Below the pieces are notes generated by a model that was not told the DNA's origin, searched no databases, and saw only the letters and a list, made by a program, of their open reading frames with translations. Position numbers and translations under genes: made by a program. Positions 23,916 through 63,690 of a stretch of 64,000 nucleotides of DNA are shown piece by piece; the stretch's first letter is position 1, and each line of letters starts with the position of its first letter. Origin of the DNA: Salvelinus alpinus (Eukaryota > Chordata > Actinopteri > Salmoniformes > Salmonidae); contig NC_092091.1 of the NCBI RefSeq assembly GCF_045679555.1, positions 90,862,880 through 90,926,879 of the forward strand, written 5' to 3'.

Positions 23916-25553
23916 GAATTACCCACCAAACTGGGACCAAGCAGCGTGATAAGCGGCAGCAGGAACATACACAGGATTTATGGCAATGGGAGCAGGTTCT
24001 GGACTATACTACGTGGGAGGAGATCGACAGGTGGGCCATCGACCCAAGGCGAATGCCGGAGCCCGCCTGGGATTCTCTGGAACAGTGCGAGGAGGGATAC
24101 CGGCGAATGGAGGCAGCACGACGACGCGGTAGGAAGCCTGTGAGTCAGCCCAAGGGCTACAAGGGAGTGTGGCGAAGTCAGGTAGGAGACCTGCGCCAAC
24201 TCCCCGAGCTTACCGTGGAGCGCAAAAGTACGGGCAGACACCGTGTTATGCGGTAGAGCGCACGGTGTCTCCTGTACGTGTGCATAGCCCGGTGCGGGTT
24301 ACTCCACCTCCCCGCACTGGCAGGGCTAGTTTGGGCATTGAGTCAGGTGCCATGAAGCCGGCTCAACGCGTCTGGTCTCCAGTGCGTCTCCTCGGGCCGG
24401 CATACATGGCACCAGCCTTACGCATGGTGTCCCCGGTTCGCCTACACAGCCCAGTGCGGGTTATTCCACCTCCCCGCACTGGTCGGGCTACGGGGAACAT
24501 ACAACCAGGTAAGGTTGGGCAGGCTCAGTGCTCAAGGGAGCCAGTACGCCTGCACGGTCCGGTATTTCCGGCGCCACCTCCCCGCCCCAGCCCAGTACCA
24601 CCAGTGCCTACACCACGCACCAAGCCTCCTGTGCGTCTCCAGAGTCCTGTGCGTCCTGTTGCTGCTCCCCGCACTAGCCTGAAGGTGCGTGTCCTTAGCC
24701 CGGTACCTCCAGTTCCGGTACCACGCACCAGGCCTACAGTGCGCCTCAGCCGGCCAGAGTCTGCCGTCTGCCCAGCGGCGCCTGAACTGCCCGTCTGCCC
24801 AACGCCGTCTGAGCTGTCCGTCTGCCAAGCGCCGCCTGTGCTGCCTGTCTGTACTGAGTCTTCAAAGCCGCCCGTCTGTCCTGAGCCTTCAAAGCCGCCC
24901 GTCTGTCCTGAGCCTTCAAAGCCGCCCGTCTGTCCTGAGCCTTCAGAGCCGTCCGCCAGACAGGAGCCGCTAGAGCCGTCCGCCAGACAGGAGCCGCTAG
25001 AGCCGTCCGCCAGACAGGAGCCGCTAGAGCCGTCCGCCAGACAGGAGCCGCTAGAACCTTCCGCCAGACAGGAGCCGCCAGAGCCTTCCGCCAGACAGGA
25101 GCAGCCAGAGCCTTCCGCCAGCCATGAGCAGCCAGAGCCTTCCGCCAGCCATGAGCAGCCAGAGCCTTCCGCCAGCCATGAGCAGCCAGAGCCTTCCGCC
25201 AGCCAGGATCTGCCAGAGCCGCCAGTCAGCCAGGATCTGCCAGAGCCGCCAGTCAGCCAGGATCTGCCAGAGCCGCCAGTCAGCCAGGATCTGCCAGAGC
25301 CGCCAGTCAGCCAGGATCTGCCAGAGCCGCCAGTCAGCCAGGATCTGCCAGAGCCGCCAGCCAGCCAGGATCTTCCAGAGCCGCCAGTCAGCCAGGATCT
25401 ACCAGAGCCACCAAAGCTGGTATTGCAATGGTGGAGGGGGGCCACGTCCCGCACCCGAGCCGCCGCCATAGGAAGGCCCACCCCGGACCCTCCCCTTCTG
25501 TGTCAGGTTTTGCGGCTGGAGTCCGCACCTTTGGGGGGGGGGGGGGGGGGTAC
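23916..25553 (+). mobile_element. Internal region of non-autonomous LTR element with a broken Pro-rich ORF
   Basis: A 1.64-kb interior without the motifs of reverse transcriptase, RNase H, protease or integrase. A first frame ends at 24,256 and contains TWEEIDRWAIDP and EARRRGRKP-like charged text. A second frame, shifted by one, is open from about 24,169 to 25,572. It encodes proline-rich repeats (SPVRVTPPPRTGRA type), then 7- to 9-residue tandem repeats of the types EPSARQE and PEPPVSQDL. The two frames overlap, so a frameshift relative to an ancestral single frame is plausible. A poly-G run (25,533-25,550) sits just before the 3' LTR in the polypurine-tract position. Function of the protein is unknown. 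Mobilisation would need proteins from another element. Confidence 0.8.
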
Positions 25554-25987
25554 TGTCACGCCCTGGCCTTAGTATTCTTTGTGTTCTGTATTATTTTAGT
25601 TAGGTCAGGGTGTGACATGGGGAATGTTTGTGTGTTTTTGTCTCGTCTTGGGTGGTTATATGGTAAGGGGGTGTTGGGTTTAGTGTATGGGGTTGTGTTT
25701 AGTGAATGTGTCTAGGTATGTCTATGGTTGCCTGAGTGGTTCTCAATCAGAGACAGCTGTCTTTCATTTGTCTCTGATTGGGAGCCATATTTAAGGCAGC
25801 CATAGGCATTATGCGTTTGTGGGTAATTGTCTATGTCATTGTGTAGTGTTTAGTGTCAGCACTATTTTGTTTATATAGCTTCACGGTCGTCAGTTTGTTG
25901 TTTTTGTTTCGTCGTTATAATTTTAAAAAATTTATTTTTCACACGCTGCGTTTTGGTCCTCTCTTCCACGTCAAGACGATCGTGACA
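25554..25987 (+). mobile_element. 3' LTR of the same retroelement
   Basis: A 434-bp partner of 23,481-23,915 in direct orientation, bounded on the right by the ATATG target duplication at 25,988-25,992. It shows that the element is structurally complete, 2,507 bp in all. Confidence 0.92.
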
Positions 25988-35462: not shown

Positions 35463-35599
35463 GCTGTCTGCCATCAGAGCAGGGGGTGGTGGTCCACGTG
35501 CCACATCGGTGAGACGGCCCAGTGTACACAGAGAAATATGAGCTAAATAGTCTGGTAATACACACAGACCAAGAGAGACAGAAACACACACAGACAGGG

Positions 35600-35759
35600 A
35601 ACAGATTAACATTAGGGCTCTGGTCTACTATACAGGGAACAGGTTAACATTAGGGCTCTGGTCTACTATACAGGGAACAGGTTAACATTAGGGCTCTGGT
35701 CTACTATACAGGGAACAGGTTAACATTAGGGCTCTGGTCTACTATACAGGGAACAGGTT
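35600..35759 (+). repeat. 38-bp array, left block in forward orientation (about 4 units)
   Basis: About 4.2 units of acaggttaacattagggctc plus tggtctactatacaggga. The block ends at the palindromic junction gaacaggttaacctgttc, centred between 35,759 and 35,760. Confidence 0.96.
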
Positions 35760-36367
35760 AACCTGTTCCCTGTATAGTAGACCAGAGCCCTAATGTTAAC
35801 CTGTTCCCTGTATAGTAGACCAGAGCCCTAATGTTAACCTGTTCCCTGTATAGTAGACCAGAGCCCTAATGTTAACCTGTTCCCTGTATAGTAGACCAGA
35901 GCCCTAATGTTAACCTGTTCCCTGTATAGTAGACCAGAGCCCTAATGTTAACCTGTTCCCTGTATAGTAGACCAGAGCCCTAATGTTAACCTGTTCCCTG
36001 TATAGTAGACCAGAGCCCTAATGTTAACCTGTTCCCTGTATAGTAGACCAGAGCCCTAATGTTAACCTGTTCCCTGTATAGTAGACCAGAGCCCTAATGT
36101 TAACCTGTTCCCTGTATAGTAGACCAGATCCCTAATGTTAACCTGTTCCCTGTATAGTAGACCAGAGCCCTAATGTTAACCTGTTCCCTGTATAGTAGAC
36201 CAGATCCCTAATGTTAACCTGTTCCCTGTATAGTAGACCAGAGCCCTAATGTTAACCTGTTCCCTGTATAGTAGACCAGAGCCCTAATGTTAACCTGTTC
36301 CCTGTATAGTAGACCAGAGCCCTAATGTTAACCTGTTCCCTGTATAGTAGACCAGAGCCCTAATGTT
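35760..36367 (-). repeat. 38-bp array, central inverted block (16 units)
   Basis: Exactly 608 bp, 16 x 38, of the same unit in the opposite orientation (core cctgttccctgtatagtaga). Both edges are palindromic junctions: ggttaacc on the left and taatgttaacatta on the right. Two units carry agatccc in place of agagccc. Confidence 0.96.
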
Positions 36368-36405
36368 AACATTAGGGCTCTGGTCTACTATACAGGGAAC
36401 AGGTT
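36368..36405 (+). repeat. 38-bp array, right block in forward orientation (1 unit)
   Basis: A single forward unit after the inverted block, ending at ggttgtcatt where unique sequence resumes. Confidence 0.94.
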
Positions 36406-42129: not shown

Positions 42130-42245
42130 CTCGGCTCCGTCCCAAATGGTACGCTATACCTTTTTATAGTGCATACCTTTGACCAGGGTCTGTAGGGTTG
42201 TGGTCAAAAGTAGTGCACTGTGTAGGGGATAGAGTGCCATTTGCC
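42130..42245. repeat. Dispersed gtgcactac-type repeat fragment near the hmx1 promoter
   Basis: The sequence cgtcccaaatggtacgctat and tcaaaagtagtgcactgtgt then aggggatagagtgccat form two facing ends of the dispersed motif, about 430 bp upstream of the hmx1 start codon. Confidence 0.7.
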
Positions 42246-42470
42246 ACGGAAGGCTCTCTCCTCTCCTGGAGTAATCCCATTTGATATTGTGCTTGTCCAA
42301 TCAGCGGATACCCTCCGCTCGTCAACGGTTTGACTTGACTCGCTTCCCGCTGTAGGCTACTACCTCTCCGGTCTCTGCCCGGTGCTGTGCTGGCGCCACC
42401 GAGCTCCAGGGCCGCGCTGGTAACGAGTTCCACGTTTCGGTGAGGATTTATCATTTATAAACAGCGGTGA

Positions 42471-42537: not shown

Positions 42538-42678
42538 CCGTTTTGTTTTGCGGGGTAATAGAACACACGTGCTCGTCGTCAACTGTGTGGACGGGTTGGA
42601 CGGACGCAGGAGGACCCGTCGTGATTGTTTTGTTCCAGTGGCCAGGAAATGTGCATATTTTTTTCAACTAAAAACATC

Positions 42679-43033
42679 ATGCACGACAAGGCGCCAGACA
42701 CTCAGGCTTCGACACCGTCAAAAGTCTCCTCGTTTTACATCGAAAACCTACTCGGCTCGAGGAAGAATGGAGAGTCAACGTCTTTCAACCGACAGGTCAA
42801 CAACAACAACAACAGCCAGTATAGTAGCAGGACCGCGGAGGAGAATGTGGAGAGGAATGAGATGGTCTACCCTAGCCGAGTCTTAGCGGGACATCCCAGC
42901 CAAGTGGCCGGTCAAGTGGCAGTCTGCTCCGGCCTCGGCGCCGAAGATTCCCCCCGGAGAGACTCGCAGTTAGAATGGTACAGAGCAGCCGCAGCCGTTA
43001 ACGTCAAACCACTCAGTCTCAAAAGGTCCAGCA
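42679..43033 (+). CDS. hmx1: hmx1 exon 1: HMX-class homeobox transcription factor, N-terminal part
   Basis: Encodes residues 1-118 and the first base of codon 119. The start at 42,679 gives MHDKAPDT. An in-frame ATG at 42,649 would add ten residues; the later one was preferred because it places the conserved motif in the usual N-terminal position. Residues 19-25, FYIENLL, are the eh1-like motif of HMX proteins (human HMX1 has a similar FLIENLL, from memory), a probable Groucho/TLE corepressor contact. The remainder is Ser/Asn/Arg-rich and low in predicted structure. The exon ends at agca|gtaagt, a strong donor, in phase 1. Reading on gives a stop after two codons, which supports splicing. The only acceptor with matching phase and HMX content downstream is at 57,292. 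The distance to it, 14.26 kb, is unusual for this gene family. The identification as hmx1 rests mainly on exon 2. Confidence 0.85.
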
Positions 43034-43656
43034 GTAAGTAGCCTATGTCTTTATTTTATTGGATAAATAGTTGTGTTTAATTGTTTTTAAACCGCATAAT
43101 CGAATCTACGGTATGAGTTACATTGTAAATAAAACGCCCAAAGAGCCATCGTTTAAATGTGACTGCATGGGCAATACAGTAATCTGTCTGTATTCCGTTA
43201 GATACATAGTCATATAATTATCTCTGACTGCATGATCGAAGCTGGTAGGATAGTCTATATTGTGTATATAAAAAAACAGCTTCTCATTGCGATCGAAGGG
43301 TTTGAATGGGCCAGTTATATTTGGCTATAACAACACGAGGTTTTAGGCCTGTATCCGACATCTAGGGCCTAAAACATCTCACAATAACCTTTATTTAATC
43401 AGTCCCATTGAGGTACAAAAAAAAACAACTATTTTTACCAGGGAGACCTGCCAAGGCGGTTTAACCACATTTCGACATGCATGTCGCGTAAGTAAACACC
43501 TGGGCCAAGAACATCTCACAATATGTTACGTCTATATCGTGTGTCGTGATAGTCCTATCGCGCATCACGGCTAAGCCTATATCTCTAATTACGCACTCTG
43601 CCTGTCACCGTGGTTACGGATCGCAAATGGCACCCTATTCCCTATATAGTGCACTA

Positions 43657-46600
43657 CTACTGATAGAGGGAAGTGTTATCTGGTCCTGTCTGGTCAGCCA
43701 GTCTACTGATAGAGAGAAATGTTCTCTGGTCCTGTCTGGTCAGCCAGTCTACTGATAGAGGGAAGTGTTCTCTGGCCCTGTCTGGTCAGCCAGTCTACTG
43801 ATAGAGGGAAGTGTTCTCTGGTCCTGTCTGGTCAGCCAGTCTACTGATAGAGGGAAGTGTCCTCTGGTCCTGTCTGGTCAGCCAGTCTACTGATAGAGGG
43901 AAGTGTCCTCTGGTCCTGTCTGGTCAGCCAGTCTACTGATAGAGGGAAGTGTTCTCTGGTCCTGTCTGGTCAGCCAGTCTACTGATAGAGGGAAGTGTTC
44001 TCTGGTCCTGTCTGGTCAGCCTGTCTATTGATAGAGGGAAGCATCCTCTGGTCCTGTCTGGTCAGCCAGTCTACTGATAGAGGGAAGTGTTCCCAGGTCC
44101 TGTCTGGTCAGCCAGTCTACTGATAGAGGGAAGTGTTCTCTGGTCCTGTCTGGTCAGCCAGTCTACTGATAGAGGGAAGCATCCTCTGGTCCTGTCTGGT
44201 CAGCCAGTCTACTGATAGAGGGAAGTGTTCTCTGGTCCTGTCTGGTCAGCCAGTCTACTGATAGAGGGAAGCATCCTCTGGTCCTGTCTGGTCAGCCTGT
44301 CTACTGATAGAGGGAAGTGTTCTCTGGTCCTGTCTGGTCAGCCAGTCTACTGATAGAGGGAAGTGTTCTCTGGTCCTGTCTGGTCAGCCTGTCTACTGAT
44401 ACAGGGAAGCGTCCTCCGGTCCTGTCTGGTCAGACAGTCTACTGATAGAGGGAAATGTCCTCTGGTCCTGTCTGGTCAGCCAGTCTACTGATAGAGGGAA
44501 GTGTTCTCTGGTCCTGTCTGGTCAGCCAGTCTACTGATAGAGGGAAGTTTCCTCTGGTCCTGTCTGGTCAGCCAGTCTACTGATAGAGGGAAGTGTTCTC
44601 TGGTCCTGTCTGGTCAGCCAGTCTACTGATAGAGGGAAGTCTTCCCTGGTCCTGTCTGGTCAGCCAGTCTACTGATAGAGGGAAGTGTCCTCTGGTCCTG
44701 TCTGGTCAGCCAGTCTACTGATAGAGGGAAGTGTTCTCTGGTCCTGTCTGGTCAGCCAGTCTACTGATAGAGGGAAGTGTTCCCTGGTCCTGTCTGGTCA
44801 GCCAGTCTACTGATAGTGGGAATCGTCCACTGGTCCTGTCTGGTCCACCAGTCTACTGATAGAGGGAAGTGTTCTCTGGTCCTGTCTGGTCAGCCAGTCT
44901 ACTGATAGAGGGAAGTGTTCTCTGGTCCTGTCTGGTCAGCCAGTCTACTGATAGAGGGAAGTTTCCTCTGGTCCTGTCTGGTCAGCCAGTCTACTGATAG
45001 AGGGAAGTGTCCTCTGGTCCTGTCTGGTCAGCCAGTCTACTGATAGAGGGAAGTGTTCTCTGGTCCTGTCTGGTCATCCAGTCTACTGATAGAGGGAAGT
45101 GTTCTCTGGTCCTGTCTGGTCAGCCAGTCTACTGATAGAGGGAAGTGTTCTCTGGTCCTGTCTGGTCAGCCAGTCTACTGATAGAGGGAAGTGTCCTCTG
45201 GTCCTGTCTGGTCAGCCAGTCTACTGATAGAGGGAAGCATCCTCTGTTCCTGTCTGGTCAGCCAGTCTACTGATAGAGGGAAGTGTCCTCTGGTCCTGTC
45301 TGGTCAGCCAGTCTACTGATAGAGGGAAGTGTTCTCTGGTCCTGTCTGGTCAGCCAGTCTACTGATAGAGGGAATTGTTCTCTGGTCCTGTCTGGTCAGC
45401 CAGTCTACTGATAGAGGGAAGTGTCCTCTGGTCCTGTCTGGTCAGCCAGTCTACTGATAGTGGGAAGCGTCCACTGGTCCTGTCTGGTCCACCAGTCTAC
45501 TGATAGAGGGAAGTGTTCTCTGGTCCTGTCTGGTCAGCCAGTCTACTGATAGAGGGGAGTGTCCTCTGGTCCTGTCTGGTCAGCCAGTCTACTGATAGAG
45601 GGAAGCGTCCTCTGGTCCTGTCTGGTCAGCCAGTCTACTGATAGAGGGAAGTGTTCTCTGATCCTGTCTGGTCAGCCAGTCTACTGATAGAGGGAAGTGT
45701 TCTCTGGTCCTGTCTGGTCAGCCAGTCTACTGATAGAGGGAAGTGTCCTCTGGTCCTGTCTGGTCAGCCTGTCTACTGATAGAGGGAAGCGTCCACTGGT
45801 CCTGTCTGGTCCACCAGTCTACTGATAGAGGGAAGTGTTCTCTGGTCCTGTCTGGTCAGCCAGTCTACTGATAGAGGGAAATGTTCTCTGGTCCTGTCTG
45901 GTTAGCCTGTCTACTGATAGAGGGAAGTGTTCTCTGGTCCTGTCTGGTCAGCCAGTCTACTGATAGATGGAAGTGTTCTCTGGTCCTGTCTGGTCAGCCT
46001 GTCTACTGATAGAGGGACGTGTTCTCTGGTCCTGTCTGGTCAGCCAGTCTACTGATAGAGGGAAGTGTCCTCTGGTCCTGTCTGGCCAGCCAGTCTACTG
46101 ATAGAGGGAAGTGTTCTCTGGTCCTGTCTGGTCAGCCAGTCTACTGATAGAGGGAAATGTTCTCTGGTCCTGTCTGGTCAGCCAGTCTACTGATAGAGGG
46201 AAGTGTCCTCTGGTCCTGTCTGGTCATCCTGTCTACTGATAGAGGGAAGTGTTCTCTGGTCCTGTCTGGTCAGCCTGTCTACTGATAGAGGGAAGTGTTC
46301 TCTGGTCCTGTCTGGTCAGCCAGTCTACTGATAGAGGGAAGTGTTCTCTGGTCCTGTCTGGTCAGCCTGTCTACTGATAGAGGGAAGTGTTCTCTGGTCC
46401 TGTCTGGTCAGCCAGTCTACTGATAGAGGGAAGTGTTCTCTGGTCCTGTCTGGTCAGCCAGTCTACTGATGGAGGGAAGTGTCCTCTGGTCCTGTCTGGT
46501 CAGCCAGTCTACTGATAGAGGGAAGTGTTCTCTGGTCCTGTCTGGTCAGCCAGTCTACTGATAGAGGGAAGTGTTCTCTGGTCCTGTCTGGTCAGCCAGT

Positions 46601-49600
46601 CTACTGATAGAGGGAAGTGTTCTCTGGTCCTGTCTGGTCAGCCAGTCTACTGATAGAGGGAAGTGTCCTCTGGTCCTGTCTGGTCAGCCAGTCTACTGAT
46701 AGAGGGAAGTGTTCTCTGGTCCTGTCTGGTCAGCCAGTCTACTGATAGAGGGAAGTGTTCCCTGGTCCTGTCTGGTCAGCCAGTCTACTGATAGAGGGAA
46801 GTGTTCTCTGGTCCTGTCTGGTCAGCCAGTCTGCTGATAGAGGGAAGTGTTCTCTGGTCCTGTCTGGTCAGCCAGTCTACTGATAGAGGGAAGTGTTCTC
46901 TGGTCCTGTCTGGTCAGCCAGTCTACTGATAGAGGGAAGTGTTCTCTGGTCCTGTCTGGTCAGCCAGTCTACTGATAGAGGGAAGTGTCCTCTGGTCCTG
47001 TCTGGTCAGCCAGTCTACTGATAGAGGGAAGCGTCCACTGGTCCTGTCTGGTCCACCAGTCTACTGATAGAGGGAAGTGTTCTCTGGTCCTGTCTGGTCA
47101 GCCAGTCTACTGATAGAGGGAAATGTTCTCTGGTCCTGTCTGGTTAGCCTGTCTACTGATAGAGGGAAGTGTTCTCTGGTCCTGTCTGGTCAGCCAGTCT
47201 ACTGATAGAGGGAAGTGTCCTCTGGTCCTGTCTGGCCAGCCAGTCTACTGATAGAGGGAAGTGTTCTCTGGTCCTGTCTGGTCAGCCAGTCTACTGATAG
47301 AGGGAAATGTTCTCTGGTCCTGTCTGGTCAGCCAGTCTACTGATAGAGGGAAATGTTCTCTGGTCCTGTCTGGTTAGCCTGTCTACTGATAGAGGGAAGT
47401 GTTCTCTGGTCCTGTCTGGTCAGCCAGTCTACTGATAGAGGGAAGTGTCCTCTGGTCCTGTCTGGCCAGCCAGTCTACTGATAGAGGGAAGTGTTCTCTG
47501 GTCCTGTCTGGTCAGCCAGTCTACTGATAGAGGGAAATGTTCTCTGGTCCTGTCTGGTCAGCCAGTCTACTGATAGAGGGAAGTGTCCTCTGGTCCTGTC
47601 TGGTCATCCTGTCTACTGATAGAGGGAAGTGTTCTCTGGTCCTGTCTGGTCAGCCTGTCTACTGATAGAGGGAAGTGTTCTCTGGTCCTGTCTGGTCAGC
47701 CAGTCTACTGATAGAGGGAAGTGTTCTCTGGTCCTGTCTGGTCAGCCTGTCTACTGATAGAGGGAAGTGTTCTCTGGTCCTGTCTGGTCAGCCAGTCTAC
47801 TGATAGAGGGAAGTGGTCTCTGGTCCTGTCTGGTCAGCCAGTCTACTGATAGAGGGAAGTTTTCTCTGGTCCTGTCTGGTCAGCCAGTCTACTGATAGAG
47901 GGAAGTGTTCTCTGGTCCTGTCTGGTCAGCCAGTCTACTGATAGAGGGAAGTGTTCTCTGGTCCTGTCTGGTCAGCCAGTCTACTGATGGAGGGAAGTGT
48001 CATCTGGTCCTGTCTGGTCAGCCAGTCTACTGATAGAGGGAAGTGTTCTCTGGTCCTGTCTGGTCAGCCAGTCTACTGATAGAGGGAAGTGTTCTCTGGT
48101 CCTGTCTGGTCAGCCAGTCTACTGATAGAGGGAAGTGTTCTCTGGTCCTGTCTGGTCAGCCTGTCTACTGATAGAGGGAAGTGTTCTCTGGTCCTGTCTG
48201 GTCAGCCAGTCTACTGATAGAGGGAAGTGTTCTCTGGTCCTGTCTGGTCAGCCAGTCTACTGATGGAGGGAAGTGTCCTCTGGTCCTGTCTGGTCAGCCA
48301 GTCTACTGATAGAGGGAAGTGTTCTCTGGTCCTGTCTGGTCAGCCAGTCTACTGATAGAGGGAAGTGTCCTCTGGTCCTGTCTGGTCAGCCAGTCTACTG
48401 ATAGAGGGAAGTGTTCTCTGGTCCTGTCTGGTCAGCCAGTCTACTGATAGAGGGAAGTGTTCCCTGGTCCTGTCTGGTCAGCCAGTCTACTGATAGAGGG
48501 AAGTGTTCTCTGGTCCTGTCTGGTCAGCCAGTCTACTGATAGAGGGAAGTGTCCTCTGGTCCTGTCTGGTCAGCCAGTCTACTGATAGAGGGACGCGTCC
48601 ACTGGTCCTGTCTGGTCCACCAGTCTACTGATAGAGGGAGTGTTCTCTGGTCCTGTCTGGTCAGCCAGTCTACTGATAGAGGGAAATGTTCTCTGGTCCT
48701 GTCTGGTTAGCCTGTCTACTGATAGAGGGAAGTGTTCTCTGGTCCTGTCTGGTCAGCCAGTCTACTGATAGATGGAAGTGTTCTCTGGTCCTGTCTGGTC
48801 AGCCTGTCTACTGATAGAGGGACGTGTTCTCTGGTCCTGTCTGGTCAGCCAGTCTACTGATAGAGGGAAGTGTCCTCTGGTCCTGTCTGGCCAGCCAGTC
48901 TACTGATAGAGGGAAGTGTTCTCTGGTCCTGTCTGGTCAGCCAGTCTACTGATAGAGGGAAATGTTCTCTGGTCCTGTCTGGTCAGCCAGTCTACTAATA
49001 GAGGGAAGTGTCCTCTGGTCCTGTCTGGTCATCCTGTCTACTGATAGAGGGAAGTGTTCTCTGGTCCTGTCTGGTCAGCCTGTCTACTGATAGAGGGAAG
49101 TGTTCTCTGGTCCTGTCTGGTCAGCCAGTCTACTGATAGAGGGAAGTGTTCTCTGGTCCTGTCTGGTCAGCCTGTCTACTGATAGAGGGAAGTGTTCTCT
49201 GGTCCTGTCTGGTCAGCCAGTCTACTGATAGAGGGAAGTGGTCTCTGGTCCTGTCTGGTCAGCCAGTCTACTGATAGAGGGAAGTGTTCTCTGGTCCTGT
49301 CTGGTCAGCCAGTCTACTGATAGAGGGAAGTGTTCTCTGGTCCTGTCTGGTCAGCCAGTCTACTGATGGAGGGAAGTGTCCTCTGGTCCTGTCTGGTCAG
49401 CCAGTCTACTGATAGAGGGAAGTGTTCTCTGGTCCTGTCTGGTCAGCCAGTCTACTGATAGAGGGAAGTGTTCTCTGGTCCTGTCTGGTCAGCCAGTCTA
49501 CTGATAGAGGGAAGTGTTCTCTGGTCCTGTCTGGTCAGCCAGTCTACTGATAGAGGGAAGTGTTCTCTGGTCCTGTCTGGTCAGCCAGTCTACTGATAGA

Positions 49601-52600
49601 GGGAAGTGTTCCCTGGTCCTGTCTGGTCAGCCAGTCTACTGATAGAGGGAAGTGTTCTCTGGTCCTGTCTGGTCAGCCAGTCTACTGATAGAGGGAAGTG
49701 TTCTCTGGTCCTGTCTGGTCAGCCTGTCTACTGATAGAGGGAAGTGTTCTCTGGTCCTGTCTGGTCAGCCAGTCTACTGATAGAGGGAAGTGTCCTCTGG
49801 TCCTGTCTGGTCAGCCAGTCTACTGATAGAGGGAAGCGTCCACTGGTCCTGTCTGGTCCACCAGTCTACTGATAGAGGGAAGTGTTCTCTGGTCCTGTCT
49901 GGTCAGCCAGTCTACTGATAGAGGGAAATGTTCTCTGGTCCTGTCTGGTTAGCCTGTCTACTGATAGAGGGAAGTGTTCTCTGGTCCTGTCTGGTCAGCC
50001 AGTCTACTGATAGATGGAAGTGTTCTCTGGTCCTGTCTGGTCAGCCAGTCTACTGATAGAGGGAAGTGTTCTCTGGTCCTGTCTGGTCAGCCTGTCTACT
50101 GATAGAGGGAAGTGTTCTCTGGTCCTGTCTGGTCAGCCAGTCTACTGATAGAGGGAAGTGGTCTCTGGTCCTGTCTGGTCAGCCAGTCTACTGATAGAGG
50201 GAAGTTTTCTCTGGTCCTGTCTGGTCAGCCAGTCTACTGATAGAGGGAAGTGTTCTCTGGTCCTGTCTGGTCAGCCAGTCTACTGATAGAGGGAAGTGTT
50301 CTCTGGTCCTGTCTGGTCAGCCAGTCTACTGATGGAGGGAAGTGTCATCTGGTCCTGTCTGGTCAGCCAGTCTACTGATAGAGGGAAGTGTTCTCTGGTC
50401 CTGTCTGGTCAGCCAGTCTACTGATAGAGGGAAGTGTTCTCTGGTCCTGTCTGGTCAGCCAGTCTACTGATAGAGGGAAGTGTTCTCTGGTCCTGTCTGG
50501 TCAGCCTGTCTACTGATAGAGGGAAGTGTTCTCTGGTCCTGTCTGGTCAGCCAGTCTACTGATAGAGGGAAGTGTTCTCTGGTCCTGTCTGGTCAGCCAG
50601 TCTACTGATGGAGGGAAGTGTCCTCTGGTCCTGTCTGGTCAGCCAGTCTACTGATAGAGGGAAGTGTTCTCTGGTCCTGTCTGGTCAGCCAGTCTACTGA
50701 TAGAGGGAAGTGTCCTCTGGTCCTGTCTGGTCAGCCAGTCTACTGATAGAGGGAAGTGTTCTCTGGTCCTGTCTGGTCAGCCAGTCTACTGATAGAGGGA
50801 AGTGTTCCCTGGTCCTGTCTGGTCAGCCAGTCTACTGATAGAGGGAAGTGTTCTCTGGTCCTGTCTGGTCAGCCAGTCTACTGATAGAGGGAAGTGTCCT
50901 CTGGTCCTGTCTGGTCAGCCAGTCTACTGATAGAGGGACGCGTCCACTGGTCCTGTCTGGTCCACCAGTCTACTGATAGAGGGAGTGTTCTCTGGTCCTG
51001 TCTGGTCAGCCAGTCTACTGATAGAGGGAAATGTTCTCTGGTCCTGTCTGGTTAGCCTGTCTACTGATAGAGGGAAGTGTTCTCTGGTCCTGTCTGGTCA
51101 GCCAGTCTACTGATAGATGGAAGTGTTCTCTGGTCCTGTCTGGTCAGCCTGTCTACTGATAGAGGGACGTGTTCTCTGGTCCTGTCTGGTCAGCCAGTCT
51201 ACTGATAGAGGGAAGTGTCCTCTGGTCCTGTCTGGCCAGCCAGTCTACTGATAGAGGGAAGTGTTCTCTGGTCCTGTCTGGTCAGCCAGTCTACTGATAG
51301 AGGGAAATGTTCTCTGGTCCTGTCTGGTCAGCCAGTCTACTAATAGAGGGAAGTGTCCTCTGGTCCTGTCTGGTCATCCTGTCTACTGATAGAGGGAAGT
51401 GTTCTCTGGTCCTGTCTGGTCAGCCTGTCTACTGATAGAGGGAAGTGTTCTCTGGTCCTGTCTGGTCAGCCAGTCTACTGATAGAGGGAAGTGTTCTCTG
51501 GTCCTGTCTGGTCAGCCTGTCTACTGATAGAGGGAAGTGTTCTCTGGTCCTGTCTGGTCAGCCAGTCTACTGATAGAGGGAAGTGGTCTCTGGTCCTGTC
51601 TGGTCAGCCAGTCTACTGATAGAGGGAAGTGTTCTCTGGTCCTGTCTGGTCAGCCAGTCTACTGATAGAGGGAAGTGTTCTCTGGTCCTGTCTGGTCAGC
51701 CAGTCTACTGATGGAGGGAAGTGTCCTCTGGTCCTGTCTGGTCAGCCAGTCTACTGATAGAGGGAAGTGTTCTCTGGTCCTGTCTGGTCAGCCAGTCTAC
51801 TGATAGAGGGAAGTGTTCTCTGGTCCTGTCTGGTCAGCCAGTCTACTGATAGAGGGAAGTGTTCTCTGGTCCTGTCTGGTCAGCCAGTCTACTGATAGAG
51901 GGAAGTGTTCTCTGGTCCTGTCTGGTCAGCCAGTCTACTGATAGAGGGAAGTGTTCCCTGGTCCTGTCTGGTCAGCCAGTCTACTGATAGAGGGAAGTGT
52001 TCTCTGGTCCTGTCTGGTCAGCCAGTCTACTGATAGAGGGAAGTGTTCTCTGGTCCTGTCTGGTCAGCCTGTCTACTGATAGAGGGAAGTGTTCTCTGGT
52101 CCTGTCTGGTCAGCCGGTCTACTGATAGAGGGAAGTGTCCTCTGGTCCTGTCTGGTCAGCCAGTCTACTGATAGAGGGAAGCGTCCACTGGTCCTGTCTG
52201 GTCCACCAGTCTACTGATAGAGGGAAGTGTTCTCTGGTCCTGTCTGGTCAGCCAGTCTACTGATAGAGGGAAGTGTTCTCTGGTCCTGTCTGGTTAGCCT
52301 GTCTACTGATAGAGGGAAGTGTTCTCTGGTCCTGTCTGGTCAGCCAGTCTACTGATAGATGGAAGTGTTCTCTGGTCCTGTCTGGTCAGCCTGTCTACTG
52401 ATAGAGGGACGTGTTCTCTGGTCCTGTCTGGTCAGCCAGTCTACTGATAGAGGGAAGTGTCCTCTGGTCCTGTCTGGCCAGCCAGTCTACTGATAGAGGG
52501 AAGTGTTCTCTGGTCCTGTCTGGTCAGCCAGTCTACTGATAGAGGGAAATGTTCTCTGGTCCTGTCTGGTCAGCCAGTCTACTGATAGAGGGAAGTGTCC

Positions 52601-55120
52601 TCTGGTCCTGGCTGGTCATCCTGTCTACTGATAGAGGGAAGTGTTCTCTGGTCCTGTCTGGTCAGCCTGTCTACTGATAGAGGGAAGTGTTCTCTGGTCC
52701 TGTCTGGTCAGCCAGTCTACTGATAGAGGGAAGTGTTCTCTGGTCCTGTCTGGTCAGCCTGTCTACTGATAGAGGGAAGTGTTCTCTGGTCCTGTCTGGT
52801 CAGCCAGTCTACTGATAGAGGGAAGTGGTCTCTAGTCCTGTCTGGTCAGCCAGTCTACTGATAGAGGGAAGTGTTCTCTGGTCCTGTCTGGTCAGCCAGT
52901 CTACTGATAGAGGGAAGTGTTCTCTGGTCCTGTCTGGTCAGCCAGTCTACTGATAGAGGGAAGTGTTCTCTGGTCCTGTCTGGTCAGCTAGTCTACTGAT
53001 GGAGGGAAGTGTCCTCTGGTCCTGTCTGGTCAGCCAGTCTACTGATAGAGGGAAGTGTTCTCTGGTCCTGTCTGGTCAGCCAGTCTACTGATAGAGGGAA
53101 GTGTTCTCTGGTCCTGTCTGGTCAGCCAGTCTACTGATAGAGGGAAGTGTTCTCTGGTCCTGTCTGGTCAGCCAGTCTACTGATAGAGGGAAGTGTTCTC
53201 TGGTCCTGTCTGGTCAGCCAGTCTACTGATAGTGGGAAGTGTTCTCTGGTCCTGTCTGGTCAGCCAGTCTACTGATAGAGGGAAGTGTTCTCTGGTCCTG
53301 TCTGGTCAGCCAGTCTACTGATAGAGGGAAGTGTTCTCTGGTCCTGTCTGGTCAGCCTGTCTACTGATAGAGGGAAGTGTTCTCTGGTCCTGTCTGGTCA
53401 GCCAGTCTACTGATAGAGGGAAGTGTTCTCTGGTCCTGTCTGGTCAGCCAGTCTACTGATAGAGGGAAGTGTTCTCTGGTCCTGTCTGGTCAGCCAGTCT
53501 ACTGATAGAGGGAAGTGTTCCCTGGTCCTGTCTTGTCAGCCAGTCTACTGATAGAGGGAAGTGTTCTCTGGTCCTGTCTGGTCAGCCAGTCTACTGATAG
53601 AGGGAAGTGTTCTCTGGTCCTGTCTGGTCAGCCTGTCTACTGATAGAGGGACGTGTTCTCTGGTCCTGTCTGGTCAGCCAGTCTACTGATAGAGGGAAGT
53701 GTTCTCTGGTCCTGTCTGGTCAGCCAGTCTACTGATAGAGGGAAGTGTTCTCTGGTCCTGTCTGGTCAGCCAGTCTACTGATAGAGGGAAGTGTTCCCTG
53801 GTCCTGTCTTGTCAGCCAGTCTACTGATAGAGGGAAGTGTTCTATGGTCCTGTCTGGTCAGCCAGTCTACTGATAGAGGGAAGTGTTCTCTGGTCCTGTC
53901 TGGTCAGCCTGTCTACTGATAGAGGGAAGTGTTCTCTGGTCCTGTCTGGTCAGCCAGTCTACTGATAGAGGGAAGTGTTCTCTGGTCCTGTCTGGTCAGC
54001 CAGTCTACTGATAGAGGGAAGTGTTCTCTGGTCCTGTCTGGTCAGCCAGTCTACTGATAGAGGGAAGTGTTCTCTGGTCCTGTCTGGTCAGCCAGTCTAC
54101 TGATAGAGGGAAGTGTTCTCTGGTCCTGTCTGGTCAGCCTGTCTACTGATAGAGGGAAGTGTTCTCTGGTCCTGTCTGGTCAGCCAGTCTACTGATAGAG
54201 GGAAGTGTTCTCTGGTCCTGTCTGGTCAGCCAGTCTACTGATAGAGGGAAGTGTTCTCTGGTCCTGTCTGGTCAGCCAGTCTACTGATAGAGGGAAGTGT
54301 TCTCTGGTCCTGTCTGGTCAGCCTGTCTACTGATAGAGGGAAGTGTTCTCTGGTCCTGTCTGGTCAGCCAGTCTACTGATAGAGGGAAGTGTTCTCTGGT
54401 CCTGTCTGGTCAGCCAGTCTACTGATAGAGGGAAGTGTTCTCTGGTCCTGTCTGGTCAGCCAGTCTACTGATAGAGGGAAGTGTTCCCTGGTCCTGTCTT
54501 GTCAGCCAGTCTACTGATAGAGGGAAGTGTTCTCTGGTCCTGTCTGGTCAGCCAGTCTACTGATAGAGGGAAGTGTTCTCTGGTCCTGTCTGGTCAGCCT
54601 GTCTACTGATAGAGGGAAGTGTTCTCTGGTCCTGTCTGGTCAGCCAGTCTACTGATAGAGGGAAGTGTTCTCTGGTCCTGTCTGGTCAGCCAGTCTACTG
54701 ATAGAGGGAAGTGTTCTCTGGTCCTGTCTGGTCAGCCAGTCTACTGATAGAGGGAAGTGTTCTCTGGTCCTGTCTGGTCAGCCAGTCTACTGATAGAGGG
54801 AAGTGTTCTCTGGTCCTGTCTGGTCAGCCTGTCTACTGATAGAGGGAAGTGTTCTCTGGTCCTGTCTGGTCAGCCAGTCTACTGATAGAGGGAAGTGTTC
54901 TCTGGTCCTGTCTGGTCAGCCAGTCTACTGATAGAGGGAAGTGTTCTCTGGTCCTGTCTGGTCAGCCAGTCTACTGATAGAGGGAAGTGTTCTCTGGTCC
55001 TGTCTGGTCAGCCTGTCTACTGATAGAGGGAAGTGTTCTCTGGTCCTGTCTGGTCAGCCAGTCTACTGATAGAGGGAAGTGTTCTCTGGTCCTGTCTGGT
55101 CAGCCAGTCTACTGATAGAT
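43657..55120. repeat. 46-bp minisatellite array, about 249 copies (11.5 kb), in hmx1 intron
   Basis: The unit contains agtctactgatagagggaag and tgttctctggtcctgtctgg plus tcagcc. Units differ at a few sites (gtgtcc, gcatcc, cgtccactgg, gcctgtc, ccaccag, aaatg). At least two 45-bp units are present (agggagtgttctc near 48,636 and 50,981). A 51-unit block is tandemly duplicated (47,675-50,019 and 50,020 to about 52,365), and 27-unit and 15-unit higher-order periods are also visible. The left edge lies inside a gtgcactac dispersed repeat copy. No open frame persists. Confidence 0.97.
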
Positions 55121-55144
55121 GGAGAGGTTCAATGAGTGTCTGTC

Positions 55145-56965
55145 TGTCTGTCTGTCTGTCTAAAATAGTGTACTAGATAGGGAATAGGGCCCTGGTCTAA
55201 AATAGTGTACTAGATAGGGAATAGGGCCCTGGTCTAAAATAGTGTACTAGATAGGGAATAGGGCTCTGGTCACTAGTAGTTCACTATATAGGGAAAAGGG
55301 CCCTGGTCACTAGATGTGCACTATATAGGGAATAGGGCTCTGGTCACTAGTAGTGCACTATATAGGGAATAGGGTTCTGGTCACTAGTAGTTCACTATAT
55401 AGGGAATAGGGCTCTGGTCACTAGTAGTTCACTATATAGGGAATAGGGCTCTGGGCACTAGTAGTTCACTATATAGTGAATAGGGCTCTGGTCTAAAGTA
55501 GTTCACTATATAGGGAATAGGGCCCTGGTCACTACTAGTTCACTATATAGGGAATAGGGCTCTGGTCACTAGTTGTTCACTATATAGGGAATAGGGCTCT
55601 GGTCACTAGTAGTTCACTATATAGGGAATAGGGCTCTGGTCACTAGTAGTTCACTATATAGGGAATAGGGCTCTGGTCACTAGTAGTTCACTATGTAGGG
55701 AATAGGGCCCTGGTCACTAGTAGTTCACTATACAGGGAATAAGGCTCTGGTCTCTAGTAGTTCACTATATAGGGAATAGTGCTCTGGTCACTAGTAGTTC
55801 ACTATATAGGGAATAGGGCTCTGGTCACTAGTTGTTCACTATATAGGGAATAGGGCTCTGGTCACTAGTAGTTCACTATATAGGGAATAGGGCTCTGGTC
55901 ACTAGTAGTTCACTATATAGGGAATAGGGCTCTGGTCACTAGTAGTTCACTATGTAGGGAATAGGGCCCTGGTCACTAGTAGTTCACTATACAGGGAATA
56001 AGGCTCTGGTCTCTAGTAGTTCACTATATAGGGAATAGTGCTCTGGTCACTAGTAGTTCACTATATAGGGAATAGGGCTCTGGTCACTAGTAGTTCACTA
56101 TATAGGGAATAGGGCTCTGGGCACTAGTAGTTCACTATATACTGAATAGGGCTCTGGTCACTAGTAGTTCACTATATAGGGAATAGGTTTCTGGTCACTA
56201 GTAGTTCACTATATAGGGAATAGGGCTCTGGTCACCAGTAGTTCACTATATAGGGAATAGGGCTCTGGTCACTAGTAGTTCACTATATAGGGAATAGGGC
56301 TCTGGTCACTAGTAGTTCACTATATAGGGAATAGGGCTCTGGTCACTAGTAGTTCACTATATAGGGAATAGGGCTCTGGTCACTAGTAGTTCACTATATA
56401 GGGAATAGGGCTCTGGTCACGAGTAGTTCACTATATAGGGAATAGGGCTCTGGTCACTAGTAGTGCACTATATAGGGAATAGGGCTCTAGTCACTAGTAG
56501 TGCACTATATAGGGAATAGGGCTCTGGTCACTAGTAGTTCACTATATAGGGAATAGGGCTCTGGTCACTAGTAGTGCACTATATAGGGAATAGGGCTCTG
56601 GTCACTAGTAGTTCACTATATAGGGAATAGGGCTCTGGTCACTAGTAGTTCACTATATAGGGAATAGGGCTCTGGTCTCTAGTAGTTCACTATGTAGGGA
56701 ATAGGGCCCTAGGTCAGAAGTAGTTCACTATATAGGGAATAGGGTTCTGGACACTAGTAGTTCACTATATAGGGAATAGGGCTCTGGTCACTAGTAGTGC
56801 ACTATATAGGGAATAGGGCTCTGGTCACTAGTAGTTCACCATATAGGGAATAGGGCTCTGGTCACTAGTAGTTCACTATATAGGGAATAGGGCTCTGGTC
56901 ACTAGTAGTTCACTATGTAGGGAATAGGGCCCTAGGTCAAAGGTAGTGCACTATTTAGGGAATTG
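55145..56965. repeat. 37-bp minisatellite array, about 49 copies, in hmx1 intron
   Basis: Unit agtagttcactatatagggaa plus tagggctctggtcact without its last base is a 37-bp tandem version of the dispersed gtgcactatatagggaatagg motif. The first units (aaaatagtgtactagatagg) and last units (aggtagtgcactatttaggg) are closest to the dispersed form. A seven-unit block of variants starting near 55,572 recurs near 55,831, an offset of 259 bp. Confidence 0.96.
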
Positions 56966-57292
56966 TACTTTTCAGAATGGGTAGGCACCCTGACCACCTT
57001 GGTTATCTCTCCATCAGTTATCTCTCCATCAGTTATCTCGACACCCTGTTATCTCTCCATCAGTTCTCTCTACACCATGTTATCTCTCCATTGGTTATCT
57101 CTCCATCAGTTCTCTCTCCGTCCTATTACTCTTTAAGCTCAAAGATTAACTATAGCTATAGGCCTATATTTTAACCCTTTGATTTTTGGCCAACTTCTGT
57201 TCTCAGCAACAGCCTATTTAAATCATTCTGACTTTGATGCCATGTGTCCATATTCGATTCACATTTTAATAATGTTGTATTTTTTTCCACAG

Positions 57293-57921
57293 ATCCCACA
57301 GAGGACAGTAGATGCTCAGATGCCCGTTGCTGCTCCCACTCAGCCAGCGACCGAGACTCCGTCTCTCCCGCGGTGTCAGAAGAACTCACTGAAGGCAGCA
57401 ACAAAACGGGACGGAAAACGGCAGACAGCAGCCTGACCGACGACAACGACGAGACGCAGAATGCCTTTGACGATCAGTCGGACCCGGAAGCCCCTCTGGA
57501 CCAGAGCTCTATCCGGAAGAAGAAAAGTAGAACCGTTTTCAGTCGGAGTCAGGTGTTTCAGTTGGAGTCGACGTTCGATACGAAACGGTACCTCAGCAGT
57601 TCTGAACGGGCAGGTATCGCGGCCTCTCTCCACCTAACGGAAACGCAGGTGAAAATCTGGTTCCAGAACCGACGGAATAAATGGAAGAGACAGCTGGCGG
57701 CGGATCTAGAGGCCGCAAACGTTTCCCGCTCGTCCCGACGGATAGTCAGAGTTCCGATTCTATATCACGAAAGCAACACGCCCTCGACGTTGCGTTTCAA
57801 CATCGACGTGTCCCAGGTCTCCCCACCGTTGATGAATTTCTCAAACCCTATGAACTATCCCTTCTCTTCGTTCGCTCACTCCGTGAGTTTACTACGCTCG
57901 CAAATGACCGGGTTGGTGTAA
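57293..57921 (+). CDS. hmx1: hmx1 exon 2: HMX homeodomain and C-terminus
   Basis: Completes a 327-residue nuclear DNA-binding protein (stop TAA 57,919-57,921). The acceptor restores codon 119 in phase. After an acidic, Ser-rich stretch with SDRDS (a family motif), the 60-residue homeodomain spans residues 194-253 (57,517-57,696). It has Arg5, Phe8, Leu16, Phe20, Trp48, Phe49, Gln50, Asn51 and Arg53 in place and the HMX signature [13 protein letters not shown]. The conserved segment VRVPILYHE follows. The protein ends [10 protein letters not shown], close to the human HMX1 end (LRAQMPGLV from memory) and unlike HMX2 or HMX3, which is the main reason for the hmx1 call. Known vertebrate Hmx1 acts in eye, ear and craniofacial development and binds CAAGTG-type sites. 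All key residues are intact, so the gene looks functional if its long intron is spliced. Confidence 0.92.
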
Positions 57922-62561: not shown

Positions 62562-62778
62562 ATGATGAGCAAAGTGGACGCGCCATGCAGGCCGACTGCC
62601 GCGTCTCTCAAATTCACCATAGACAATATTCTGAACCTGCAGACAAACTCGAGCGGTAACGGTAGGAAGACAGTTGACAGCTGTCATTCCGGTAGCAGGC
62701 TACAGAATAGCACGGGACTGTACTGGTTCGATGACCATCAACGGAGAATGGACCCTGCGACAAGGCTACATGATGAAG
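62562..62778 (+). CDS. hmx4: hmx4 exon 1: SOHo-type HMX homeobox protein, N-terminal part
   Basis: Encodes residues 1-72 plus one base (phase 1, as in hmx1). Two adjacent ATGs, 62,562 and 62,565, give MMSK or MSK; the first is used here, the second is equally possible. Residues 18-24, FTIDNIL, form the eh1-like motif expected at this place in HMX proteins and point to corepressor recruitment. The exon ends gaag|gtaggc. Unspliced reading reaches a stop after 13 codons. The intron, 62,779-62,980, is only 202 bp and ends ccgttctcag. The gene lies about 4.3 kb after the hmx1 polyadenylation signal on the same strand, the HMX1-HMX4 order known in non-mammalian vertebrates. Confidence 0.85.
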
Positions 62779-62980
62779 GTAGGCAACTGTTGCCTTATAT
62801 GGCAAAATATGAATGTTAAACAATGCACTATAGCGGAATAAATTGAATTTTTTGTAGCCTGATTCAACACAACGGGCCTAATGCTTTTGTATGTGTAGCA
62901 TAATATTGTAGCCTGATAAACTGTCAGCGTCATGCTATACATATTGCGGAATACAATTTCTGTCCCATTTCCGTTCTCAG

Positions 62981-63552
62981 AGCCGGATAACGACTGTAGC
63001 CCAACCGGAGGACCCAAGGCCGTCGCTATCACCCGGGAAGACTCGTTACAGATCACCGACAATTGCTTCGAAAGCGGAGACAGCGGCGACGACTGCTCCT
63101 CGACGCATCACACCGGGGACGGTGATAGCGGCGGCAAGAAAACACAACTGACAACCAAGAAAAAAACTCGCACCATCTTCTCCAAGAGACAGATCTTTCA
63201 GTTAGAATCTACTTTCGATATGAAGCGGTACCTTAGCAGCGCCGAGCGCGCCTGCCTCGCCAGTTCTCTCCAGTTAACGGAAACGCAGGTCAAAATCTGG
63301 TTCCAGAATCGAAGGAATAAATTGAAAAGACAGATTTCATCCGCGCTAGATGGTCCCAGCGGGGATTTCTCCGACGCGGGTCCGGGGAAGGCTCTGCAGC
63401 TCCCGGCCTTGTACAAAGACAGTAACCTGCTAGGAAGATGTTTGATGCCGATACCCCTGCCCATCGTATACCCTGGCAGTAGCACGCCTTATTTATGTTT
63501 TTCCAATGCCAGCAAGTACTTTAGTCTATTCGAAGGAGACGTTGTCCTGTAG
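62981..63552 (+). CDS. hmx4: hmx4 exon 2: SOHo-type homeodomain and C-terminus
   Basis: Completes a 262-residue predicted nuclear DNA-binding protein (stop TAG 63,550-63,552). An acidic Ser/Asp/Gly-rich stretch precedes the homeodomain at residues 132-191 (63,157-63,336). Arg5, Phe8, Leu16, Phe20, Trp48, Phe49, Gln50, Asn51 and Arg53 are all present. [13 protein letters not shown] and NRRNKLKRQ distinguish it from Hmx1-3, which read [13 protein letters not shown] and NRRNKWKRQ; both features are those I remember for chicken SOHo and fish hmx4. After the homeodomain come [12 protein letters not shown] and [14 protein letters not shown], likewise SOHo-like. Known roles of this gene are in eye and ear patterning. 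The last codons and the stop lie in a 39-bp tandem repeat, so the extreme C-terminus may have changed recently. The reading frame is intact. Confidence 0.87.
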
Positions 63553-63690
63553 ACAAGACCGAGTCTGTTTAAAGGAGACGTTGTCCTGTAGACAAGACCG
63601 AGTCTGTTTAAAGGAGACGTTGTCCTGTAGACAAGACCGAGTCTGTTTAAAGGAGACGTTGTCCTATTTAGACTTGGCCTAGTCTGTTCG
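63535..63690. repeat. 39-bp tandem repeat overlapping the hmx4 stop codon
   Basis: Units begin at 63,535, 63,574, 63,613 and 63,652 with ggagacgttgtcctgtagac plus aagaccgagtctgtttaaa; the fourth is diverged. The first unit contains the final codons (Gly-Asp-Val-Val-Leu) and the TAG of hmx4. Later units lie in the 3' untranslated region. Confidence 0.93.

Follow-up and report, generated by a model that had tools for sequence, protein, structure and literature searches.

Long intronic minisatellites have been described before, one of the closest being an intronic variable number tandem repeat (VNTR) with a 30-bp unit in human CACNA1C, termed TRACT, which spans 3 to 30+ kb among people and whose long alleles show lower expression in fibroblasts and testis (PMC13131567). 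More generally, human VNTRs with a GC content above 60% and units longer than 15 bp are 21-fold enriched in subtelomeres (PMC7608644). Miniature inverted-repeat transposable elements (MITEs) have been described as sources of tandem repeats (Xenopus Xstir, miDNA4 and others; PMC9659126), and the Atlantic cod genome carries unusually many tandem repeats, about 8% of the assembly, which are tied to assembly gaps and heterozygous lengths (PMC5241972). Here we describe a structure of this kind in Salvelinus alpinus, where a 14,259-bp intron of the homeobox gene hmx1 is filled to 93.0% by two minisatellite arrays with units of 46 and 37 bp. The gene and its neighbour hmx4 lie in a 64,000-nucleotide stretch of DNA, referred to as the window, which corresponds to C6:90862880-90926879 of a 2.37-Gb assembly.

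Like TRACT, the hmx1 array is a locus-specific intronic minisatellite of many kb with distinct unit variants, and length variation would be expected of it. Unlike TRACT, it is known from one full allele and from sequence alone, and it lies amid many other arrays. The locus shares with human subtelomeric VNTRs the enrichment of long-unit arrays toward chromosome ends, yet the human zone measures 5 Mb (PMC7608644), whereas a high repeat load was sampled here 15-21 Mb inward from the C6 end, and the GC content of the 46-bp array, 52.6%, is below 60%. As in MITE-born repeats, an array would have arisen from or beside a palindromic DNA-transposon-like element, but similarity to the element is confined to the 37-bp unit and does not extend to the 46-bp unit. 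The tandem-repeat richness of Atlantic cod has its counterpart here, although at 53.6% of the window outside the intron the local load is unlike the cod figure.

The coding part of hmx1 begins with an ATG at 42649 on the + strand; exon 1 ends at 43033, exon 2 spans 57293-57921 including the stop, and the spliced frame is open for 337 codons plus the stop. Its intron (43034-57292) is a phase-1 GT-AG intron (GTAAGT...CACAG) and free of N, the sole N run in the window being at 2088-2187. The two arrays occupy 13,259 of its 14,259 bp, so that 1,000 bp remain. The neighbouring hmx4 has its ATG at 62562, a phase-1 intron of 202 bp at 62779-62980 and an open frame to 63552. Each protein contains one Pfam Homeodomain (for hmx1, PF00046 with an E-value of 6.5e-22). 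The original prediction, made from the letters of the window, had placed the intron at these coordinates with about 93% minisatellite content, which proved exact to the base. Its two adjacent arrays of about 249 x 46 bp and 49 x 37 bp were recovered by Tandem Repeats Finder (TRF) as 249.3 and 48.4 copies, and its description of both genes as having one phase-1 intron and a homeodomain was borne out by the frames and by Pfam. Head-to-tail units of 10-100 bp inside the GT-AG intron of an intact gene, as modelled from the sequence, make this an intronic minisatellite.

The names hmx1 and hmx4 follow the original prediction and are putative, and the motif near the hmx1 N-terminus is presumed to be eh1-like on the same basis. 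A sequence search of a structure library returned other homeodomains, with no HMX among the 60 of 124 matches listed. Apart from a second copy on C6, the closest relatives of hmx1 in the same genome are genes on C11 and C31 that also lie beside hmx4-like genes, and the adjacency of hmx1 and hmx4 is already known (PMC7768253). The features of the locus are as follows.

42649..43033, + strand: hmx1 exon 1, coding part, with the presumed eh1-like motif; open frame, donor GTAAGT at 43034.
43034..57292, + strand: hmx1 intron, 14,259 bp, phase 1; splice sites and frame.
43625..43657, + strand: end of a dispersed palindromic (MITE-like) element, adjoining the 46-bp array; genome matches and similarity to the 37-bp unit.
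43657..55123, + strand: 46-bp minisatellite, 249.3 copies; TRF, with an internal exact 2,100-bp duplication.
55172..56963, + strand: 37-bp minisatellite, 48.4 copies, member of a dispersed family; TRF and genome matches.
57002..57119, + strand: 15-bp array, 7.7 copies (63.7 in the second C6 copy); TRF.
57293..57921, + strand: hmx1 exon 2 with the homeodomain; open frame and Pfam.
62562..63552, + strand: hmx4, two exons, intron 62779-62980 (202 bp); open frame and Pfam.

The 46-bp repeat is private to the hmx1 intron, because all 235 genome matches of a 30-base piece of its unit (at most 2 mismatches) fall within the array itself, a result that rules out its dispersal; the same piece had no match in 100 shuffles of the window. 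The array comprises 49 unit kinds, the commonest accounting for 116 of 246 full-length units. Its first 50 units hold 19 of its 29 singletons, and the last 50 are nearest to the consensus. An exact internal duplication of 2,100 bp starts at window position 47671, the two copies being offset by 2,345 bp (about 51 units), and further exact block copies measure 585, 418, 417 and 310 bp, with lags of 15, 21, 30 and 27 units, respectively. This block-wise pattern would be accounted for more readily by unequal exchange or template-switching repair than by slippage of single units. The exact 2,100-bp copy could be either a recent event or an assembly duplication.

The 37-bp unit belongs to a dispersed family: a 35-base piece of it has 3,227 genome matches, with C6 86.7-90.9 Mb, C1 117.4 Mb and C2 115.5 Mb among the matches listed. 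Directly to the left of the 46-bp array lies the 33-base end of the palindromic element, which has 6,804 genome matches at no more than 1 mismatch, divided 3,427/3,377 between the strands, against 0 for a reversed control; a related stretch at about 42133-42255 also matches many contigs, often on both strands. The 37-bp unit aligns to this left end in inverted orientation with a score of 43, the best of 100 shuffles scoring 25, and the similarity of the 46-bp unit to the element end did not rise above shuffles. Among the 164 arrays of the surrounding region, 7 resemble the element, whereas a shuffled-unit null gave at most 1 in 100 runs. These similarities suggest that the element seeded the 37-bp array.

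Other palindromic or dispersed sequences occur nearby. Two adjoining 38-bp arrays at 35594-36370 are built from mutually reverse-complementary units, a mid-array flip of orientation as expected from a palindromic seed. Two dispersed elements, about 1.27 and 1.62 kb long (C6:90846917-90848197 and C6:90947918-90950025), have many copies of 99-100% identity, and the latter has inverted ends of about 200 bp; both are probably recently active DNA transposons.

The paralogous loci provide an estimate of the earlier state of the intron. The same assembly holds further hmx1-hmx4 pairs on C11 and C31, which are 82% and 86% identical in their two longest aligned blocks and would fit a duplicated pair. 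Their hmx1 introns measure 757 and 770 bp, are GT-AG and phase 1 as in the window copy and lack large arrays; tandem repeats make up 1.3% and 1.0% of the two 7-kb loci. Because both introns are this short, the ancestral hmx1 intron was probably short as well, about 0.76 kb, and the 1,000 bp left in the window intron after removal of the two arrays is near that length. A short ancestral intron had been predicted from the gene structure shared with hmx4, which has a 202-bp intron. The C11 and C31 loci support the short ancestor but not the comparator, since intron length differs by gene: the hmx4 introns (202 bp in the window, 231 and 231 bp on C11 and C31, all GT-AG) are about 0.2 kb, against about 0.76 kb for the short hmx1 introns, which rules out hmx4 as a yardstick. 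Two further candidates did not hold up. One was an element conserved between the window intron and the paralog introns: the window intron flanks align with the latter no better than shuffles, whereas the C11 and C31 introns align with each other. The other was a progenitor of the 46-bp unit in the C11 and C31 introns, to which neither this unit nor the 37-bp unit is more similar than shuffles are.

Tandem repeats cover 62.6% of the window and, as given above, more than half of it outside the hmx1 intron; the intron is thus the extreme of a regional state. Over 256 kb around the locus we counted 164 non-overlapping arrays (period at least 10) totalling 133,160 bp, 30 of them at least 1 kb long; the largest, with a 33-bp unit and 13.7 kb in length (C6:90738901), exceeds the 46-bp array of hmx1. 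We then sampled 40 one-kb places at round positions of our choosing on six contigs (C1, C3, C6, C11, C20 and C31), with 11 of the places on C6 from 80 Mb up. The 26 places less than 20 Mb from a contig end had a mean tandem-repeat share of 56% and the 14 deeper ones a share of 14% (Mann-Whitney p=0.0055), and the share fell with distance from the contig end over the 40 samples (Spearman -0.47, p 0.002). With the C6 samples removed, the means were 0.50 (n=15) in the outer and 0.17 (n=8) in the inner places. Two samples 12 kb apart, C6:90960067-90963000 and 90975001-90978000, consist throughout of one 45-bp unit; if continuous, the array would exceed 17 kb, and in the second C6 copy it measures only 1.6 kb. 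An open frame at 24133-25572 contains a proline-rich 27-bp coding repeat, and a similar 27-bp repeat is found near C6:90759295.

Starting from the observed structure, unit privacy, block duplications, short paralog introns, regional repeat excess and outer/inner contrast, we consider it fairly likely that a short intron, a MITE-like element and two arrays grown in a minisatellite-rich outer region, mainly neutrally, account for the whole. A formerly short hmx1 intron of about 0.8-1 kb would have gained the dispersed palindromic element, perhaps by a single insertion. The 37-bp array would have grown from the sequence of that element, and the 46-bp array between the left end of the element and the 37-bp array, by the repeated copying of blocks as large as some 51 units, in an outer part of the chromosome in which minisatellites had expanded at many sites. 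The driver would most likely be frequent double-strand breaks with unequal or template-switching repair; double-strand-break hotspots in rainbow trout increase toward chromosome ends (PMC11703093), and by analogy with trout such breaks are a plausible driver of array growth. Because the splice sites and exons are untouched, the gene would have stayed intact, and the expansion would have been mainly neutral.

Several points weigh against this account. The sampled positions were self-chosen, 11 of the 40 lie on C6 from 80 Mb up, and a contig end may be a centromere. The hmx1 locus itself is about 10 Mb from the contig end and thus not strictly subtelomeric, and the hmx1 loci on C31 and C11 are array-poor at 8.7 and 15.3 Mb from their contig ends, so position alone is insufficient. 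Among the outer samples, 6 of 26 were without tandem repeat, while one inner sample (C11 at 30 Mb) was all repeat. Similarity to the element is limited to 7 of the 164 regional arrays and is not shared by the 46-bp unit.

The assembly contains a second hmx1-hmx4 pair on C6, which bears on how far the array can be trusted. Its hmx1 exon 2 (C6:90767654) differs from the window copy at 9 of 629 bases, and its hmx4 is found at C6:90772726-90773715; the pair lies on the same strand and scaffold as the window pair, 152.5 kb away. It occupies a stretch of about 99 kb, C6:90765880-90864966 (to window position 2087), between two 100-N gaps (C6:90765780-90765879 and 90864967-90865066). The left end of the stretch falls within a 38-bp counterpart of the 37-bp intron array, of which 593 bp (15.6 copies) are present; the 15-bp array comes next, with its 63.7 copies. 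A search for exon 1 of this copy, with 1,641 bp of the window exon 1 and its flanks as query, gave no full-length match other than the query itself among the best 40 of 1,065 candidates, and the 46-bp array was not seen in this copy, all its genome matches being in the window array. Five samples to the right of the window hmx1, up to about 91.018 Mb, match the stretch in order, two by non-array DNA (94-100% identity) and three by arrays only, which makes about 74 of the 99 kb appear collinear. Non-array mismatch between the two copies was 0-4% over the eight stretches compared. To the left of the second copy, about 1.8 kb match at 85-88% identity with similar spacing, which may be a dispersed repeat; other homologous upstream DNA was not found there. 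DNA searches with two non-tandem stretches for a duplicate-chromosome copy or the far end of the second copy yielded, in the best 40 candidates each, only the 1.27- and 1.62-kb dispersed elements. When arrays with a period of at least 10 that are whole in both copies were compared, leaving out gap-cut or masked arrays and microsatellites, 8 of 10 differed in copy number and 2 were equal. The suggested variation in array length between individuals is favoured indirectly by these differences, but the second copy may be a duplicate and not an allele. A 39-bp array at 63533-63665 overlaps the stop and 3' region of hmx4, with 3.4 copies against 24.1 (41-bp unit) in the second copy.

Judging from these data, the 99-kb stretch is probably a false duplication or a misplaced contig; a haplotig and a misplaced contig of the duplicate chromosome may both fit. 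Could part of the array length be an artefact as well, with the 2,100-bp duplication misassembled alongside such a contig? We regard this as unlikely. The exact 2,100-bp duplication (lag 2,345 bp), the bounding gaps, the start inside the 37/38-bp array with exon 1 missing and the ordered matches of the five samples would all agree with it, and the chum salmon assembly, where highly similar duplicate regions are collapsed and more are suspected among unplaced contigs, provides a precedent (PMC10411575). Against it, the array and both intron flanks are contained in one N-free stretch, and the second copy independently has its exon 2 preceded closely by 37/38-bp and 15-bp arrays; for these reasons the kind of intron is real even if its copy number is inexact. 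A true tandem duplication over 152 kb, to which the shared strand and scaffold point, would be in line with a non-array mismatch of 0-4%, which seems too high and uneven for ordinary alleles. It is nevertheless less likely, because both ends of the second copy are gaps and exon 1 is absent, and the upstream homology is limited to the 1.8 kb of possible dispersed repeat; we rate it as quite improbable.

The preferred account of mainly neutral growth has also to be weighed against readings that concern the gene itself. All 9 exon 2 differences between the C6 copies change an amino acid (147 synonymous sites), for which P is 0.06-0.09 even under neutrality. One homeodomain site carries T in the window hmx1 but M in the hmx1 of the second copy, C11 and C31 and in the hmx4 of the window, C11 and C31; the second copy has AAG instead of CAG at the hmx1 acceptor. 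These differences hint at relaxed constraint in one or both C6 hmx1 copies, sequence errors being possible. That C6 hmx1 is a decaying duplicate, with its role filled by the C11 and C31 copies and a 13-kb insertion hence tolerated, is a reading that the changes, together with the missing exon 1 of the second copy, would favour, yet we hold it doubtful: the window frame is intact, the homeodomain full and the splice sites strong by the scores given below, errors in the second contig could give such changes, and hmx4 next to it looks normal, with 9 of 14 differences synonymous (5 of 9 in exon 2 and 4 of 5 in exon 1, where the sole non-synonymous one changes the last codon). Long introns also occur in essential vertebrate genes. 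The original prediction had further suggested that intron length and copy number could affect splicing or expression timing. By generic, unfitted position weights, the consensus 46-bp unit has an acceptor-like site scoring 3.1, which exceeds 96.8% of the 1,538 AG sites scored at the paralog loci, together with a weak donor-like site scoring 0.9, compared with 2.2 for the hmx1 donor and 0.56 for the presumed real donor of the C31 hmx1. Decoy splicing at the units is therefore possible in principle, but the acceptor of hmx1 is much stronger (8.6, with 4.3 and 3.7 for the C11 and C31 hmx1). Since transcription elongation covers a few kb per minute, the extra 13 kb would take only minutes. Repeats are equally abundant across the region, without singling out the gene, and the intron flanks resemble the paralog introns no more than shuffles do. 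In spite of the CACNA1C precedent (PMC13131567), it is thus very unlikely that array length delays transcription or alters splicing so as to tune hmx1 timing; we found nothing in favour of a timing effect, and any effect of the array on splicing or timing is probably small and unproven. More specifically, each of the roughly 249 units carries on the sense strand the branchpoint-like TACTGAT and the acceptor-like TGTCTGGTCAG, besides the weak donor-like site. The array could conceivably act as a splice sink whose length titrates splicing factors or diverts exon-1 splicing and so sets hmx1 output per fish; we consider this far-fetched, and if true, changes by tens of units would vary hmx1 output among fish.

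In our preferred reading, the hmx1 array is probably a locus-private intronic VNTR in a minisatellite-rich region, a known kind of feature that is striking but probably ordinary. A published account of such an hmx1 intron in fish was not found among titles in the open-licence literature. The truncated second copy is a warning that introns of this kind can interrupt assemblies and may give rise to spurious gene duplicates. As a single-locus sequence, the 46-bp unit would be a good marker for the direct measurement of array mutation. The locus shows the extent to which the intron of a developmental regulator can be enlarged by satellite-like DNA with frame and splice sites intact. Beyond hmx1, minisatellites make up about half of the sampled sequence in the outer parts of the sampled contigs, and this regional load may be the bigger story.

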